Source: Candidatus Poribacteria bacterium (lineage in GTDB: Bacteria; Poribacteria; DTPJ01; WJIO01). Taken from it: a stretch of 7,255 nucleotides of DNA. This document shows, in pieces, positions 289 through 6,929 of this stretch. Within the stretch, counting starts at the first letter, position 1; every line of letters begins with the position of its first letter. The notes under the pieces are model-generated. The model saw only the letters and a program-made list of their open reading frames with translations, was not told the DNA's origin and searched no databases. Made by a program: the position numbers and the translations under genes. The stretch is from the NCBI GenBank assembly GCA_014730235.1, contig WJIO01000099.1:1-7255 (forward strand), given 5' to 3'.

Positions 289-825
289 CTAGGCGGGACC
301 CAATTCCTCGACCAGTATTTGATCGTTGGTATAGATACATATCTCTGAAGCAATCTTCAGAGCCTCTCTGACGATTTCAGGAGCTGTTAAAGTCGAGTGC
401 CGAACAAGGACTTTGGCAGCGGCCAGGGCGAAGTTTCCTCCACTACCTATGGCTAATATTCCATCATCTGCGGAGATTATGTCGCCGCTTCCTGAGATCA
501 CATAAGAATGATCCCGGTCTGCGACAGCAAGCATAGCTTCAAGTCTTCTTAAAACCCGGTCTGATCTCCATTCTTTGGCAAGCTCTACTGTGGCGTTCAC
601 AAGATTGCCGTTATATTTATCCAGGTTATTTTCCAACTTTTCGTAGAGAGCCATAGCATCTGCAACTGCACCAGAGAATCCTAAAAGAACCCTATCTTTG
701 TAGATTCTTCTTATTTTCTTTGCATTCTGTTTGACTATGGCATTATCCAGGGTGACTTGACCGTCACCTCCTAATGCAACTTTGCCGTTATGTCTAACAG
801 AAAGAATAGTGGTACCATGAAACAT
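289..825 (-). CDS. hslV: HslV, peptidase subunit of the HslVU protease
   Basis: HslV is the proteasome-like threonine protease that degrades proteins unfolded by HslU. The protein has 178 residues, normal for the family. It starts [11 protein letters not shown], so a four-residue propeptide would be removed to expose Thr5 as the catalytic N-terminal nucleophile. The other active-site residues are in register: Asp21 in GGDGQVT, Lys37 (mature Lys33) in KKIRR, and Ser128 in the IGSGG loop. [17 protein letters not shown] and the C-terminal EICIYTND are also typical. The reading frame is open 18 codons further upstream (to 879), but that start would lie inside the -35 box. The start at 825 follows a purine-rich AGGGGG Shine-Dalgarno (831-836) and matches the family N-terminus. 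hslU follows downstream. Confidence 0.96.
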
Positions 826-840
826 AATTTCCCCCTGAAT

Positions 841-862
841 TTGCAACATAATGATATTGCAA
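841..862. promoter_or_regulatory. Operator-like imperfect palindrome over the hslV -10 box
   Basis: The 22 bases 841-862 form an imperfect palindrome, with TTGCAA at each end and 9 of 11 base-pair positions symmetric. It covers the -10 element and the predicted transcription start of hslV. The placement fits a repressor site, but A+T-rich palindromes arise easily by chance and no regulator gene is nearby. Confidence 0.3.
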
Positions 863-879
863 TACAAGGTATTTGTCAA
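851..879 (-). promoter_or_regulatory. Sigma-70 type promoter of hslVU
   Basis: Reading the minus strand, TTGACA (879-874, perfect -35) is followed by a 17-base spacer and TATCAT (856-851, five of six -10 bases). The predicted transcription start is near 844, giving a leader of about 20 bases that contains the hslV Shine-Dalgarno. It lies directly between the end of the upstream aldolase gene (898) and hslV, so hslVU has its own promoter. I see no heat-shock (sigma-32) signature. Confidence 0.8.
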
Positions 880-897
880 GTACAGATTTCCCCATAT

Positions 898-1662
898 CTA
901 CTGATTGAGGCACGTTATTTCTGAGACAATCTTGGAGGCGGAAGATTTTAACATTCCTGCATCTGAGCTAATGGCCACGAACTGAAACCCCTGTTCCACT
1001 CGCCTGTTTACAGCTTCGGTAGTTGCGCAGTGTATACCCGCAGGTTTCCCGACTTCCTTAGCTGATTGCAAAACACTCATGACGGCGGCTTCGTGTTCTG
1101 GATCAGAGCAATGGATATCGGGTTTAATGCCCATTGATCCAGCCAGATCGTTAGGGCCAATGAAGCATGCGTCTACTCCGTCCACAGCAAGAATTTCTTG
1201 TGCGCTTTTAACCGCTTCGATATGTTCAATCTGCACTATAACGGCTATTTCGTTATTTGCTTCGGCGAAATAATCCGAGCCATAGACCATAGCTCTTCCA
1301 CCGCCTAATGATCGCAGCCCTTCAGGTGGAAATTTCATGGCTTTTACGGCCTGCTCCGCTTCTTCCGGGGAATTTACCATAGGGATCACAAGCCCCATGG
1401 CGCCAGCGTCTAAAAGCCTCTTTATAAGAATAGGATCGTTCCATGTTACCCTTGCCATAGGTATAGTATCCGTTGTGCAGATGGCCTGGAAACAATGGAC
1501 AGTAGTTTCAAATCCTACCGGGCTGTGTTCTGTATCAACCACCAGCCAGTCGAATCCAGCATGGGCCATGTATTCGGCTGATACCCATGAAGCCAGAGAA
1601 AGCCATGCTCCAATGGCTGGTTTTTCTGATGCTAATTTTTTCTTTACTGTGTTTTTTTTCAT
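898..1662 (-). CDS. HpcH/HpaI-family aldolase (2-keto-3-deoxy acid aldolase type)
   Basis: This is a 254-residue class II pyruvate aldolase of the HpcH/HpaI family. Members cleave 4-hydroxy-2-keto acids, such as 4-hydroxy-2-ketoheptane-1,7-dioate or 2-keto-3-deoxy sugar acids, into pyruvate and an aldehyde using a divalent metal in the cytoplasm. The active-site set is complete by comparison with E. coli HpaI: His46 in VVDTEHSP, Arg71 in MARVTW, metal ligands Glu146 in QIEHIEA and Asp172 in IGPNDLAGSMG. GAMGLVIPMVNSPEEA and FPPEGLRS are also family motifs. The frame is open to 1785, but its first 41 codons translate an inverted-repeat element (including CFRRND from the dispersed palindrome). 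The start at 1662 has AGGAGA eight bases upstream (1671-1676) and gives the normal family length. The exact substrate cannot be read from sequence. No pathway partner is adjacent. Confidence 0.9.
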   Translation of the reverse strand: MKKNTVKKKLASEKPAIGAWLSLASWVSAEYMAHAGFDWLVVDTEHSPVGFETTVHCFQAICTTDTIPMARVTWNDPILIKRLLDAGAMGLVIPMVNSPEEAEQAVKAMKFPPEGLRSLGGGRAMVYGSDYFAEANNEIAVIVQIEHIEAVKSAQEILAVDGVDACFIGPNDLAGSMGIKPDIHCSDPEHEAAVMSVLQSAKEVGKPAGIHCATTEAVNRRVEQGFQFVAISSDAGMLKSSASKIVSEITCLNQ

Positions 1663-1685
1663 GTGTTGCTTCTCCTGAAGTGTTA

Positions 1686-1821
1686 AAATATTTGGTTCTT
1701 CCGGGTTCAGTGTGGTAAAGATAAGAAACTTCTTTACGCTGTCATTCCTGCGAAAGCAGGAATGAAAAGCTGAGAGCATTTTCAATTATTACCACACTGA
1801 ACCCGGAAGAACCAAATATTT
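1686..1821. repeat. 33-bp perfect inverted repeat enclosing a palindromic repeat (MITE-like)
   Basis: Bases 1686-1718 and 1789-1821 are perfect reverse complements over 33 bases, separated by 70 bases. Each arm ends with the self-complementary AAATATTT on its outer side. The interior carries a full copy of the dispersed palindrome (1741-1765). The 136-base layout resembles a miniature transposable element with long terminal repeats, or a large cruciform or RNA hairpin. In the minus-strand transcript the structure would end nine bases before the Shine-Dalgarno of the aldolase gene, so it could influence that gene's expression. No transposase is present in the window. A clear target-site duplication is not seen, unless AAATATTT itself is one. 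Confidence 0.85.
1741..1765. repeat. Dispersed palindromic repeat, copy 1
   Basis: CATTCCTGC (1743-1751) and GCAGGAATG (1756-1764) form a perfect nine-base-pair stem closed by a GAAA loop. The same core (GTCATTCCTGCGAA) recurs near 6976, at 7024 and, inverted, at 7093. This marks a short dispersed intergenic family of REP/MITE type. Repeats of this general form are known from many bacterial genomes. Confidence 0.8.
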
Positions 1822-1869
1822 AGACTGAGAATTCTAAAAAAGTTCTTAAAGCGAAAAACCTGATCTTTT

Positions 1870-1897
1870 TGTCATTCCTGCTTTCACAGCATTTTCA
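1870..1897. repeat. Internally deleted copy of the palindromic repeat unit
   Basis: Bases 1870-1881 (TGTCATTCCTGC) repeat 1740-1751, and 1888-1897 (AGCATTTTCA) repeat 1775-1784, in the same order and orientation. The two blocks are six bases apart here and 23 apart in the full copy. This looks like a duplicate of the neighbouring element that has lost the right half of its palindrome. No gene overlaps it. Confidence 0.6.
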
Positions 1898-1934
1898 TTT
1901 TTTAGTATATCCTTAAGCGTCAGCATTATAATTC

Positions 1935-1963
1935 AGGATACCAGAATGTAAGTTTTAGGTCAA
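1935..1963 (-). promoter_or_regulatory. Candidate sigma-70 promoter for the HpcH/HpaI aldolase gene
   Basis: On the minus strand TTGACC (1963-1958) is followed by 17 bases and TATCCT (1940-1935). This gives five of six -35 and four of six -10 matches. A perfect TATAAT also lies at 1930-1925, but with no good -35 at the right distance. Either would give a leader of about 260 bases that includes the 33-bp inverted repeat. The promoter begins just after the terminator of the upstream gene. Confidence 0.45.
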
Positions 1964-1978
1964 TATGGATTTTGCTTT

Positions 1979-2020
1979 AAAAAACATAAGTTCGAAACTG
2001 TATACAGTTTCGAACTTATG
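1979..2020 (-). terminator. Rho-independent terminator after the Omp85 fusion gene
   Basis: Bases 1985-2020 are a perfect 36-base palindrome: 18-base arms starting CATAAGTTCG with no designed loop. In the minus-strand direction six T residues follow (1984-1979). It begins 37 bases after the stop codon at 2058. The stem is A+T-rich and unusually long. A terminator is the simplest reading. A symmetric protein-binding site is possible as well. Confidence 0.75.
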
Positions 2021-2057
2021 AGAGAGCTGGCTGAGTTGTGGTTGTGACTGAATTGAC

Positions 2058-5000
2058 TTAAAACATTCGGGCTATGCGCGCACTGACGATAAAATCAACA
2101 TCCTCGTCATCCCTGACCGGAGAGGCAAAATTAACCCTTAATGACCCAAGTTGTAAGCCTATACCCAGATCGGTATTCAAATCATCAAAGTCTATATTAT
2201 CGTTATAGAACCATGCGTTACCTGAGTCCACAAAGAACACTATACCTATTCCCGGAGGCCATTTTGTCATAACCCAGTATTCAGCGTTGATCAATACCAT
2301 TTTGTCTCCTGCAAATTCCTTAAACGGATAACCCCGGAGAGTTCCTATGCCACCGAGAAAGAGTTTGCGTGGATGTAAAATGGAAAGTTCCCGGTCTGTT
2401 GAGGCTGCTTTTATACGGAACATAAGGAACTGGTTTCCAGAAAGACGATTGTACCTTCTTATATTAACTTTATAAAGGGAAAAATCGAAGTCACCGCCTA
2501 ACTGGTTACCAGCCCACTCGGCAGAAAAAGTGTTATACCAACCGTTACTGGGGTTTTTACTTGAATTTCGGGTGTCTATTGTGTATTCTGCGATAACACT
2601 TTTCATTCTGCCCTCTTCAATAGGTGGATTTTCGGGTTTATATTTTTCGTCTTCCAAACGATATTTTATGCGCGTTTCGCTGTCCTGAGTCCACCGGAAT
2701 TCATCGGACCAATCGTCATCTGCGTAGGCCCTGTCAAGTAAGCTCCAATCGCTGTTTTTAGCAAGGCTTCTATATTCGTCATTTCTGTATTTAATTTTGA
2801 ATTCTGTATCTGAAGTTACCTTTTGTCTGAGATTAAGCTCATAACCTTCCCGCTGATAGAAATCCCTCCAGGCTTCACCAAGTATAAATTCTGCTATAAA
2901 GTGCTCAGTGTCAGAAACAAGATTTCTATCGTTTGTATCGGTTATTTTGTGAACATCAATACCTATTATCGGCCTATTTTTCGTTCCAAACAGGGATTTT
3001 TCCACTCCAAAACGATAGTTCCAGATTTTGCTGGAAAAACCATAAAGGAATTCGCAGTAGGCCTTTGAGCCGGTGTAATTGTTTTCCAGAGCTAAGTATG
3101 GACCCCATTGAACGCCATGAACCCGGTTGAATTCGCCTTCTCCATCAAATTTAAATTTCGTCAACCTGCCTTCTTCAACGTTAATATAAACTATATTGGT
3201 TCCATCATCAGCCTTTTCTGTTCCCCAATCCGCGCTGCGTATATATGAAAGCCGGGATGTCATAGTATAAACAGCGTTATCTATGCTTTCCTTCTTAATA
3301 AGCTGTCCTGTTTTCAGATCCAGGGCTTTTGTTATATCCCTGGTTCGGACTTTTTCGTTACCGCGTATTTCAATTTTATCTATTAATCCCTCCTCAATAT
3401 CAAGGGTAAGGGTGTTGGCTATTACAGAACACCTGACAGCCGCCACCTGATAGCCTTTTTGTTTATAAAGTTTTTCTACAAGCCCACATTTAGCTCTTAT
3501 TGCCTTCCTGGTAGTAACAGGAGATTCAAGGTTAAAATAGTCAATAAGCTGTTCTTTTGAAAATACTGTTGCGCCATTAACCTGTACCCTGGATATTGAA
3601 ATTATCTCTTTTTCCACAACTTTAACAACAACATGAACTCCGTTGTCATTTTCAGTTAAATCTATACCTGTTTTTTCAAACCAACCTGTAGATTCCAGGC
3701 GTTTTTTGGCTTTTGATAAATTATCTACATCTGCTATGTCTCCAACCCTTAGCTTCATGGCCTTTATTATCTTTTTCCGGGATATTCTTTCGTTGCCCTC
3801 AACTGATATATGGGATATAGTTAAGGCCTGTTCAGATGGGGTCAAAGGCTCATCTTCCATTTCTATTTCCATCAATTCTGAGACAAATTTTACCTCGCCA
3901 AATCTCTCAGGTACATGGGGCCAATCACCATATTCATAGGTAGGAGACCAGAAACTGTATTCTTTTCTACGCTGTTCCATGCGAAAGATATTCATCATCA
4001 ATGTATCCCCTTCCTTAATTTCTACCTGCATGGATGAATGGGGTATACCCATCTCTATACTCCAGAAGTCCTCCCTGATTTCGGTTTCATATATCCCCTC
4101 TGAATCCCAGTCAATACCAAGCTCAGATTCGACAGCGCTTCGCTTTTCAGGCACGGCCTTGGCTACATGCTGATCAAATACTGCACCGATGGCATTTATG
4201 GCAATATGATAGTAGTCTTCATTTCCATTGAATGTAGGATCAAGAAATATCTGAACCAGATCATCATTCCAGGCATGTCTGTCATCTTCAGTATTTAACA
4301 CCGCTATATTTTCTATAGATGATTCATAGCATTTAACTCCTATGTATACGCTTTGTTCATCCCAGAGTATATAAGCTTCAGTTGGCTCTTTGGGTTCTTC
4401 CATACCATCAGGCCAAAGGAAATTATCTATTTTAGCCGCCTTGTTCCAACAATCGTCGTCAAGAAGTCCGTCAATATCAGGTGGATCCAGTGTATAAAGG
4501 GCTTCTATATAAGGAACTTCCTTTATCTGTTCTTCCATTTCCATATCTTCAATTTTATATTCTTTTGGCTGAAATCCTGGTCTTGCAATAATTTTTTCAC
4601 CTGACAGTATATTAACTTTTCCGGTTACTGCTTCGACTTTAAGCAAAGGCCCACCGTCATGTAATTCCATTTTTAACTTATTTTTATCTACAGTTTCGGT
4701 CTTTGTTATGGCATCTGAATGTATTTTATAGTTTACAGAACCGGTATGGGAAACGACATCTAAATTTGCGGCATAGCCATCGGGTATGGTAACAGTCACC
4801 GGGCCAGAGACTGTAACAATTTTTATGGGTACGGAGAAATCATCGCCGATTACCAGGTTTATTGGGCCATTTGCTGTGCCAAACAAACTTTCGCTGTCCA
4901 GAAGCATCTGGACATCTATTCTTCCGTTAATTGTCTTTACTGATGCAGAACCAATTGAATTTTTTATGTCAACATCTCCGTTTACACTCTCTGTTTCAAT

Positions 5001-5414
5001 TTCACCTTTGATTCCTGATACAGTTATTGATCCATTCGTTGTCTCCAATTCCAGATTTGAATCTTCCGGGACAAGTATATCGTAATTTATGGAAAGGTCT
5101 TTTGGTTTAAATATTGAAAAATTCGGGGATATTTTGACTTTATCATCTTCCTTCTCTATCTTTATATTAACATCATCCAACCTATCCCGATCCTTACCAG
5201 ACATCTTGCTGGCTTTAATCTCTATTTCAGCTTTCTCCCATCCTCTCATCCTTATATTCCCATTTATATTTTTAAGCTGGATGGTCGAGAACCTGTCTAC
5301 AGGCATTAATTGTTGATATTCATCTCCATAGCTGGCGGATACAAGACAAAATAATAAAATTGAATAAATAATAATTGGAATATCCGTTTTTTTTGTTATC
5401 AATCCCGCTTTCAT
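2058..5414 (-). CDS. Omp85-family outer-membrane protein with DUF4097-like and CBM9-like N-terminal domains
   Basis: This 1118-residue protein is predicted to sit in the outer membrane with its N-terminal domains in the periplasm. A signal peptide (about 1-30; hydrophobic 13-27, likely cut after SYG) is followed by a DUF4097-type beta-solenoid (about 33-275, with turns such as TTNGSITVSG, ESVNGDVDI and KTINGRIDV). Next is a CBM9-like domain (about 303-512; DPPDIDGLLDDDCWNKA, VYIGVKCYES). Three POTRA domains follow (about 530-602, 604-676, 677-749; ISVEGNERISRKKI opens the first, IEIRGNEKVRTRDI the third). A C-terminal barrel (about 750-1118) has the Omp85 signature LRGY at 1026-1029, FVDSGNAW at 1061-1068 and a terminal Phe. 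Family members insert or translocate proteins across the outer membrane. Three POTRAs recall TamA more than five-POTRA BamA. ATG at 5414 follows AGGAGGT by four bases. A sigma-54 promoter match lies upstream. The client and the ligand are unknown. Confidence 0.9.
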   Translation of the reverse strand: MKAGLITKKTDIPIIIYSILLFCLVSASYGDEYQQLMPVDRFSTIQLKNINGNIRMRGWEKAEIEIKASKMSGKDRDRLDDVNIKIEKEDDKVKISPNFSIFKPKDLSINYDILVPEDSNLELETTNGSITVSGIKGEIETESVNGDVDIKNSIGSASVKTINGRIDVQMLLDSESLFGTANGPINLVIGDDFSVPIKIVTVSGPVTVTIPDGYAANLDVVSHTGSVNYKIHSDAITKTETVDKNKLKMELHDGGPLLKVEAVTGKVNILSGEKIIARPGFQPKEYKIEDMEMEEQIKEVPYIEALYTLDPPDIDGLLDDDCWNKAAKIDNFLWPDGMEEPKEPTEAYILWDEQSVYIGVKCYESSIENIAVLNTEDDRHAWNDDLVQIFLDPTFNGNEDYYHIAINAIGAVFDQHVAKAVPEKRSAVESELGIDWDSEGIYETEIREDFWSIEMGIPHSSMQVEIKEGDTLMMNIFRMEQRRKEYSFWSPTYEYGDWPHVPERFGEVKFVSELMEIEMEDEPLTPSEQALTISHISVEGNERISRKKIIKAMKLRVGDIADVDNLSKAKKRLESTGWFEKTGIDLTENDNGVHVVVKVVEKEIISISRVQVNGATVFSKEQLIDYFNLESPVTTRKAIRAKCGLVEKLYKQKGYQVAAVRCSVIANTLTLDIEEGLIDKIEIRGNEKVRTRDITKALDLKTGQLIKKESIDNAVYTMTSRLSYIRSADWGTEKADDGTNIVYINVEEGRLTKFKFDGEGEFNRVHGVQWGPYLALENNYTGSKAYCEFLYGFSSKIWNYRFGVEKSLFGTKNRPIIGIDVHKITDTNDRNLVSDTEHFIAEFILGEAWRDFYQREGYELNLRQKVTSDTEFKIKYRNDEYRSLAKNSDWSLLDRAYADDDWSDEFRWTQDSETRIKYRLEDEKYKPENPPIEEGRMKSVIAEYTIDTRNSSKNPSNGWYNTFSAEWAGNQLGGDFDFSLYKVNIRRYNRLSGNQFLMFRIKAASTDRELSILHPRKLFLGGIGTLRGYPFKEFAGDKMVLINAEYWVMTKWPPGIGIVFFVDSGNAWFYNDNIDFDDLNTDLGIGLQLGSLRVNFASPVRDDEDVDFIVSARIARMF

Positions 5415-5491
5415 GTTTACCTCCTGATTTCATCAATTAAACGTGCAACGGATCAACCTGCAATCTCGTGGAATTATCTGATTTAAGTTAG

Positions 5492-5507
5492 CGCAAGCAT
5501 TGTGCCA
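5492..5507 (-). promoter_or_regulatory. Sigma-54 promoter for the Omp85 fusion gene
   Basis: The minus strand reads TGGCACAATGCTTGCG, matching the sigma-54 consensus TGGCAYRNNNNTTGCW at every specified base except the last. GG and GC have the correct -24/-12 spacing. The predicted start near 5481 gives a leader of about 65 bases to the ATG at 5414. Transcription would require an ATP-dependent enhancer-binding activator. None is encoded in the window. Confidence 0.7.
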
Positions 5508-5523
5508 AATACAATTCCCTATG

Positions 5524-5650: not shown

Positions 5651-5708
5651 CATAATAAATTAATTGGGTAAAACATCTTTTTAGCAGTATTGCAACTAAA
5701 AACCCCAT

Positions 5709-5724
5709 TGGCATACAGGTTGCA
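5709..5724 (+). promoter_or_regulatory. Sigma-54 promoter, plus strand
   Basis: TGGCATACAGGTTGCA matches TGGCAYRNNNNTTGCW at every specified base. The predicted start is near 5735. Downstream are a perfect Shine-Dalgarno and a very short ORF (5782-5808), and then a long hairpin with a T-rich tail. The plus-strand unit would therefore be only about 240 bases long. Confidence 0.7.
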
Positions 5725-5984: not shown

Positions 5985-6929
5985 TTAAATCTGAAGAGCC
6001 AGTTTTTTTAGCTGTCCGACTGAATCTGCTCCCATAGTTCCATCCTGATAGATACCCACATTGAAACACATAGGGCATTGATGCTCATTACATATCCTGA
6101 CAAAATCAATAACTTCTTCATCCGCATAAAGCGGGGAGGGTATATCGGTATTCATTTTTGAGTGAACCCACGCCCGGTCTTCCAGGCATGTCCATCCATG
6201 CCATTGCAGGCCGTTATCCATAAAGCGGTTCTTCGGGCGATGATTCAGGTTAACCAGTTCCCCGGCCCAGTAATCCTGGTGGGTGGTATAGAGGTATGTC
6301 TGATTAACACCTGCGTTATAAGTCACCAGCCGGTCTGGAAATCCGGCTTTTGCGGCTTCTGTAAATTTCTCCCAGGGGAACTGGAAGCCGGTCATATCTG
6401 TGGTAACTGAATTATGCGGGCCTCTTGTGTCCAGGGAATAGGGGCTGTCGAACCACCAGGCCCTGATTTTATCCTTATACCTGCGGCCCATCCACTCCAC
6501 AATTTCAAGAAGGTTGCCGGCAAGGCGATCCTTTGACGCATCATGATAACCCACAGCCTTTTCCCATCCGGGATCGTCCTTATGGTTGCATGAATGATTG
6601 TAGTATGCTACAAGGTCTATTCCATGATCCCGCAGACCAGAGGCGATTTCATCTATAAGGTCTCTCTGGCAGGTTCGTCCTGGAGATATTTCATCCACCA
6701 CAGGATGTGGCCCGGGTATCATCTGGAGCGCGTGGGCGATGGTGAAAATAAGGTAATCAGCCCCGCTTTCCAGCACAGCTTCAATAAAGACGGGCAGTTT
6801 AAAATTTTCCACCGAATCCTGAAACGAAAGGGGATTCCCCCGGCGGGGCTTTGTCTGCGCTGTCCAGTGAACCCCTATGCCGTAACGACAATCCGCCAGC
6901 CAATCCGTATTTGCTTTTACATAAGACAT
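5985..6929 (-). CDS. GH29-like (alpha-L-fucosidase-type) TIM-barrel protein
   Basis: This 314-residue protein has no signal peptide and is probably cytoplasmic. It resembles the catalytic barrel of GH29 alpha-L-fucosidases, which release L-fucose from glycans. Visible correspondences are YGIGVHWTA (16-24), SGADYLIFTIAHAL (55-68, equivalent to the GAKYxVLTxKHHDG strand), RDLIDEIASGLRDHGIDLVAYYNHS (89-113), AWWFDSPYS (157-165) and a late PMCFNVGIYQDGTM (286-299) like the LLNVGPxxDG segment. Asp161 in WWFD is the likely nucleophile by position. The second His of the HH pair is replaced (His66-Ala67). The protein is shorter than typical GH29 enzymes (over 400 residues) and lacks a C-terminal beta-sandwich. 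The ATG at 6929 has only a weak GGGG ten bases upstream. Substrate specificity is uncertain, and a related TIM-barrel hydrolase family is possible. Confidence 0.65.
   Translation of the reverse strand: MSYVKANTDWLADCRYGIGVHWTAQTKPRRGNPLSFQDSVENFKLPVFIEAVLESGADYLIFTIAHALQMIPGPHPVVDEISPGRTCQRDLIDEIASGLRDHGIDLVAYYNHSCNHKDDPGWEKAVGYHDASKDRLAGNLLEIVEWMGRRYKDKIRAWWFDSPYSLDTRGPHNSVTTDMTGFQFPWEKFTEAAKAGFPDRLVTYNAGVNQTYLYTTHQDYWAGELVNLNHRPKNRFMDNGLQWHGWTCLEDRAWVHSKMNTDIPSPLYADEEVIDFVRICNEHQCPMCFNVGIYQDGTMGADSVGQLKKLALQI

Follow-up and report, generated by a model that had tools for sequence, protein, structure and literature searches.

Omp85 proteins build the outer membranes of Gram-negative bacteria or carry proteins across them, and how this activity is tuned by extra modules is poorly known. 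A 2014 survey of the superfamily distinguishes ten subfamilies; proteins with an Omp85 barrel and POTRA domains are most conservatively taken to act in assembly or translocation (PMC4104836). It includes a BamA-like subfamily, with one to three POTRAs and present besides BamA; the WD40-Omp85 proteins, with a large β-structured propeller module N-terminal to the barrel that was read as reminiscent of a BamA-BamB fusion; and PlpD of the type Vd systems (PMC4104836). In PlpD a non-POTRA module (the patatin enzyme passenger), POTRA and barrel lie in one chain. Toastrack (DUF4097) proteins are partners of the envelope-stress systems PSP and Lia, where most of them are joined to membrane domains of PspC or LiaI-LiaF; they have been argued to be intracellular (PMC11237479). 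The CBM9 modules whose structures have been solved have plant-type glycans as ligands (PMC8280721).

None of the ten subfamilies is described with a Toastrack or CBM9 module (PMC4104836), and Omp85 and the outer membrane are both absent from the Toastrack survey (PMC11237479). A literature search for the architecture reported here, which joins Toastrack, CBM9, three POTRAs and an Omp85 barrel, found no description, subscription papers lying mostly outside that search.

Domain architecture

The window is a whole contig of 7,255 nucleotides (C15) from a 5.5 Mb draft genome of a Candidatus Poribacteria bacterium. Its minus strand carries an uninterrupted frame at bp 2058–5414, which, as the original prediction held, comprises 1118 codons from an ATG that is preceded by an AGGAGG ribosome-binding site. 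The predicted order of domains also held up: signal peptide, Toastrack/DUF4097 β-helix, CBM9, three POTRAs and an Omp85 barrel, all of these modules being supported by profile matches and AlphaFold models (coordinates below are likewise on the minus strand). In the full-chain model (alignment of 42 rows, pLDDT 79.9) the β-helix spans residues 32–272, the CBM9 sandwich 302–512 and the POTRAs extend to about 749, followed by the barrel; its pTM of 0.50 makes the relative placement of the domains uncertain.

The putative signal peptide (residues 1–30, MKAGLITKKTDIPIIIYSILLFCLVSASYG, bp 5325–5414) is recognized by its sequence and contains a helix at residues 12–28 in the model; a scan of it for a lipobox was negative. 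The Toastrack module (residues 32–272, bp 4599–5321) is recognized mainly by its fold. A separate model of residues 31–292 has a pLDDT of 91.6, and a Foldseek search with it returned 4qrk and 4opw, both cited as Toastrack examples (PMC11237479), as the top two solved structures by E-value; 3pet and 3ljy were matched as well. The sequence profile of this part matched no solved structure, the fold search alone giving matches, and Pfam DUF4097 (PF13349) is below its cut-off in the window protein and above it in two of the orthologues tested (L007, 47% identical, 1e-9; and L012). The modeled β-helix also weakly resembles the HMW1 secretion domain (Z 7.5).

The CBM9 module (residues 302–512, bp 3879–4511) matches Pfam CBM9_1 at 314–509 (7e-8; 32.9 bits versus a cut-off of 23.4). 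In the full-chain model it superposes on 7nwn with Z 21.4 (2.2 Å over 176 residues), on 1i82 with Z 21.0 and on 4jpq with a similar Z of 21. It shares its fold and an aromatic clamp with TmCBM9-2 and with CBM9.3 of CkXyn10C, but those modules are located in xylanases. The clamp residues of TmCBM9-2 are Trp71 and Trp175 (PMC8280721), with which W382 and W498, respectively, align in a profile alignment (with a one-residue numbering offset that was inferred), although the placing of W498 on Trp175 lies in a weak stretch of that alignment. Each of the two is Trp in 41 of 42 aligned orthologue rows, and since both are conserved, binding of carbohydrate by this module is plausible. About eleven CBM9 matches are present in the genome; the original expectation that CBM9 usually belongs to other proteins agrees with matches found in proteins of about 700–750 amino acids.

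Three stretches match Pfam POTRA (residues 531–602, 604–675 and 679–749, bp 3168–3824; 7e-20) and are seen in the model. The barrel (residues 752–1118, bp 2061–3161) matches Pfam Omp85 at 939–1105 (5e-18) and has 16 strands, as counted in the full-chain model, in which it superposes on TamA, Sam50 and BamA at Z 20–23 (22 for TamA and 20–22 for BamA). It contains the motifs LRGY at 1026–1029 and FVDSGNAW at 1061–1068. A 16-strand barrel with an LRGY-type motif, preceded by POTRAs, places the protein in the Omp85 (BamA/TamA) superfamily. A weak likeness to DUF5686 (Pfam PF18939) covers the barrel start, and none of the proteins tested reaches the curated cut-off for this family.

The window protein thus resembles the BamA-like subfamily in its barrel, its three POTRAs and its presence besides BamA (see below), but its POTRAs are preceded by Toastrack and CBM9, together about 500 residues, an arrangement absent from that survey (PMC4104836). 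Like the WD40-Omp85 proteins it carries a large β-structured N-terminal module, which is a β-helix plus CBM9 instead of a propeller; a peptidase-PD40-Omp85 protein (L109) is encoded separately in the same genome. Its domain order can be likened to that of PlpD, whose patatin is unlike the Toastrack-CBM9 part. And in contrast to the PSP and Lia Toastracks, with which it has the fold in common, the Toastrack here lies behind a signal peptide and on an outer-membrane barrel. The superfamily is known, and what is new is a Toastrack-CBM9 fusion variant within it, together with the putative σ54 promoter and the terminator described below.

Relationship to other Omp85 proteins

The genome encodes a canonical BamA (L107; 797 amino acids, five POTRAs) with an OmpH/Skp-like gene behind it, and because of this BamA beside Skp the window protein is an additional Omp85. 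A three-POTRA Omp85 and the peptidase-PD40-Omp85 protein are also encoded. A second five-POTRA Omp85, of 1201 amino acids, lies at L106, bp 1671–5273. Identity with BamA was rejected, since the TIGR03303 score of 119 bits lies below the cut-off of 297, there are three POTRAs here, and the five-POTRA BamA is separate; identity with TamA was likewise rejected (NF047950, 29.5 bits against a cut-off of 625). The separate BamA and the scores below these cut-offs bear out the part of the original prediction that set this protein apart from housekeeping BamA, and the other part, that it is a specialized secretion or assembly device, is plausible.

In a tree of barrels, the window protein falls with its orthologues into a clade that also holds DUF4097-Omp85, DUF4252-Omp85 and DUF4252-CBM9-Omp85 proteins of Poribacteria, and the four further Omp85s encoded in the genome lie outside it (support 100/98); the inner order of the tree is poorly resolved, and its outgroup rows on long branches call for caution. 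Because such domain-swapped Omp85s share a barrel clade, it seems that a single barrel type has had its N-terminal modules exchanged. Some of the DUF4252(-CBM9)-Omp85 genes (L082, bp 5971–11,290; L111, bp 508–4499) lie beside free-standing DUF4252 genes and genes for an ECF sigma factor and an anti-sigma factor; the anti-sigma genes are of the zf-HC2 type, and some of the free-standing DUF4252 genes have a lipobox-like N-terminus. We know of no description of this type of operon. In a WOR-3 contig (L086, bp 1258–5467), genes for a GntR regulator, an ABC ATPase, a permease-like protein and a DUF4097 lipoprotein are followed by one for a DUF4097-barrel protein; this protein has a DUF5686-like barrel, and its gene is directly behind the DUF4097 gene, which has a lipobox.

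Distribution in the Poribacteria

The search covered 58 genomes: that of the window and those of 57 relatives. In 53 of them one frame matches both the N-terminal and the C-terminal halves, a number that rose to 54 once the frame in G016 had been read; the CBM9 part of the G016 protein is divergent, and Pfam recognized neither CBM9 nor POTRAs in it. A full-length match is absent from G003, G023, G040 and G055, and G023 has a 687-amino-acid DUF4097-Omp85 protein with no recognizable CBM9 or POTRA. The recurrence of one domain order in 54 of 58 genomes rules out mis-assembly or chance fusion. The architecture had been called unusual, which it is not within the Poribacteria, where it is close to universal; this speaks against a niche-specific accessory.

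In a scan of 84,980 species genomes, which starts from two short conserved peptides and so may miss distant relatives, full-length relatives were confined to the Poribacteria; the DUF4097-barrel fusion of the WOR-3 contig and a Zipacnadia contig that matches in the CBM9 part only were also found. A search for plasmid-borne relatives gave weak partial matches only. The mean pairwise identities of the modules are 0.46 for Toastrack, 0.52 for CBM9, 0.44–0.54 for the POTRAs and 0.53 for the barrel, so that Toastrack and CBM9 are conserved about as well as the POTRAs and barrel.

The locus and its transcription

At the left end of the window, bp 1–879 of the minus strand hold hslV (289–879) and then the first part of hslU, which runs into the contig end. 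HslV-HslU also directly precede an Omp85 orthologue at locus L034, so that two distant members of the group have these protease genes close to the Omp85 gene. Upstream, bp 5985–6929 (minus strand) encode a 314-amino-acid protein with a match to α-L-fucosidase. In the closest relative (L026, bp 3592–4284) a DUF4390 gene begins 24 bases after the Omp85 gene; it is absent in the window. Clusters with GcvT-like, adenylate kinase and TRAP transporter parts, named from their sequences, adjoin the gene, and only some members of the phylum keep them. Among the orthologue loci inspected, no neighboring gene is kept across Poribacteria families, and no polysaccharide or lipid transport genes kept near the Omp85 gene were found; neither the window gene nor the inspected orthologues have a sigma or anti-sigma gene beside them. 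Since no neighbor is kept and the gene is apparently its own transcription unit, the idea of a dedicated client finds no support.

A candidate σ54 -24/-12 promoter, TTGGCACAATGCTTGC (bp 5493–5508, minus strand), ends 78 bases before the start codon. It has the GG and GC elements ten bases apart. We first noticed the site by eye and then turned to control counts and to the relative: the genome contains 24 copies of the motif YTGGCAYRNNNNTTGC, versus 3 for the reversed control, and the closest relative, G001 (47% identical), has TTGGCACGATAATTGC 85 bp 5′ of the ATG, about the same place, the site keeping its position while the flanks align poorly. A consensus σ54 site at this gene was found in these two genomes only and in none of the orthologues of other Poribacteria families. 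The window genome encodes one RpoN and some 28 strong matches to the σ54 activator domain, and further σ54 sites precede groES, two hsp20 genes, a desulfoferrodoxin (superoxide reductase) gene, a flagellar rod gene and a response regulator gene; a site before groES is also present in the distant G057. Bacteroidota are reported to control heat-shock genes by σ54, and the same has been predicted of Planctomycetota (PMC12316311); in this branch of Poribacteria the Omp85 gene and heat-shock genes seem, by these motifs, to have a promoter type in common. A σ70 scan did no better than shuffled sequences.

A predicted intrinsic terminator (bp 1985–2020, minus strand; 16-bp stem then TTTTTT, -22.2 kcal/mol, z = -8.1) follows the stop codon, so the gene is seemingly monocistronic; it looks like a transcription unit of its own, from σ54 promoter to strong terminator. 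A second σ54 consensus site, TTGGCATACAGGTTGC, lies on the opposite strand (bp 5708–5723), 200 bases away from the first one. Within 400 bases downstream of it, no frame of at least 50 amino acids begins, and an Rfam search of the window gave no match; the site is possibly the promoter of a non-coding RNA, or due to chance.

Possible functions

For an Omp85 protein with barrel and POTRAs, the most conservative reading is that it acts in assembly or translocation (PMC4104836). We propose, with a probability of about 0.5, that the protein is an accessory factor of outer-membrane assembly (or translocation), inducible by stress, whose periplasmic modules serve for docking and for binding glycans. 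The signal peptide would export the protein, and the 16-strand barrel would span the outer membrane, with the three POTRAs facing the periplasm. Both N-terminal modules, some 500 residues, likely remain in the periplasm, as originally suggested; the AlphaFold model gives no membrane side for them, and we place them there because the like conservation of all modules argues for a constant internal ligand and not a changing outer one. The Toastrack β-helix could be a scaffold on which other proteins dock (chaperones, perhaps, or clients, or lipoproteins that share its fold), and CBM9 could bind the end of a carbohydrate, most likely a cell-wall or envelope glycan, tethering or licensing the machine. 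In this order of Poribacteria the gene would be transcribed alone from its σ54 promoter, probably with the heat-shock and oxidative-stress genes; the σ54 context, the Toastrack module and the operons of the sister proteins are suggestive of envelope stress. The protein may thus be induced under stress and assist outer-membrane biogenesis or quality control, and for such an assembly factor the G023 DUF4097-barrel protein without recognizable POTRA or CBM9 is an odd relative.

The main rival of this assembly factor is a type Vd-like autotransporter, in which the Toastrack-CBM9 part would, like the PlpD patatin, be a passenger that moves through the barrel to the surface, where CBM9 would bind surrounding polysaccharides. 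We consider it rather unlikely, but a real alternative, because the order of passenger, POTRA and barrel is that of PlpD. β-helices are typical passengers and substrates of two-partner secretion, and the weak resemblance to the HMW1 secretion domain fits this, as do the plant-type ligands of CBM9 modules (PMC8280721) and the number of CBM9 matches in the genome. It is less easily reconciled with extra modules conserved like the barrel across the phylum, with a promoter type held in common with heat-shock genes, or with sister proteins that adjoin free-standing genes of the same N-terminal domain. In addition, PlpD has one POTRA, not three.

The ECF sigma and anti-sigma genes that adjoin the sister DUF4252(-CBM9)-Omp85 genes, and the place of Toastrack proteins in stress-sensing systems (PMC11237479), would also suit an outer-membrane signal transducer whose N-terminal sensor detects envelope damage or glycan and relays this to a sigma factor pathway. 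This seems improbable, since no sigma or anti-sigma gene adjoins the window gene or its inspected orthologues, an Omp85 gene next to a sigma gene may simply be its target, and the POTRAs and assembly-type LRGY loop are retained. The intact sugar clamp would also accord with a channel that translocates lipid, polysaccharide or other non-protein cargo with CBM9 as cargo receptor, but transport genes for such cargo are not kept nearby at the inspected loci and we know of no Omp85 shown to carry it, so this appears very improbable.

More speculatively, the window protein may belong to a domain-shuffled class of Omp85s centered on a single phylum, in which Toastrack or DUF4252, alone or together with a CBM9 that reads glycans, would be periplasmic sensor modules that can replace one another on the barrel. 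Such proteins would act as envelope-stress sensor-effectors and would tie the assembly of the outer membrane to the state of glycans and to σ54 or ECF control. A Toastrack behind a signal peptide runs counter to the published argument for an intracellular Toastrack, and the architecture provides a marker gene for the biology of the little-cultivated phylum Poribacteria. The near-universal occurrence there, in one chain, of an assembly-type barrel, a stress-type β-helix and an intact sugar clamp turns a coupling of outer-membrane assembly to the state of the cell wall or of glycans into a testable idea.
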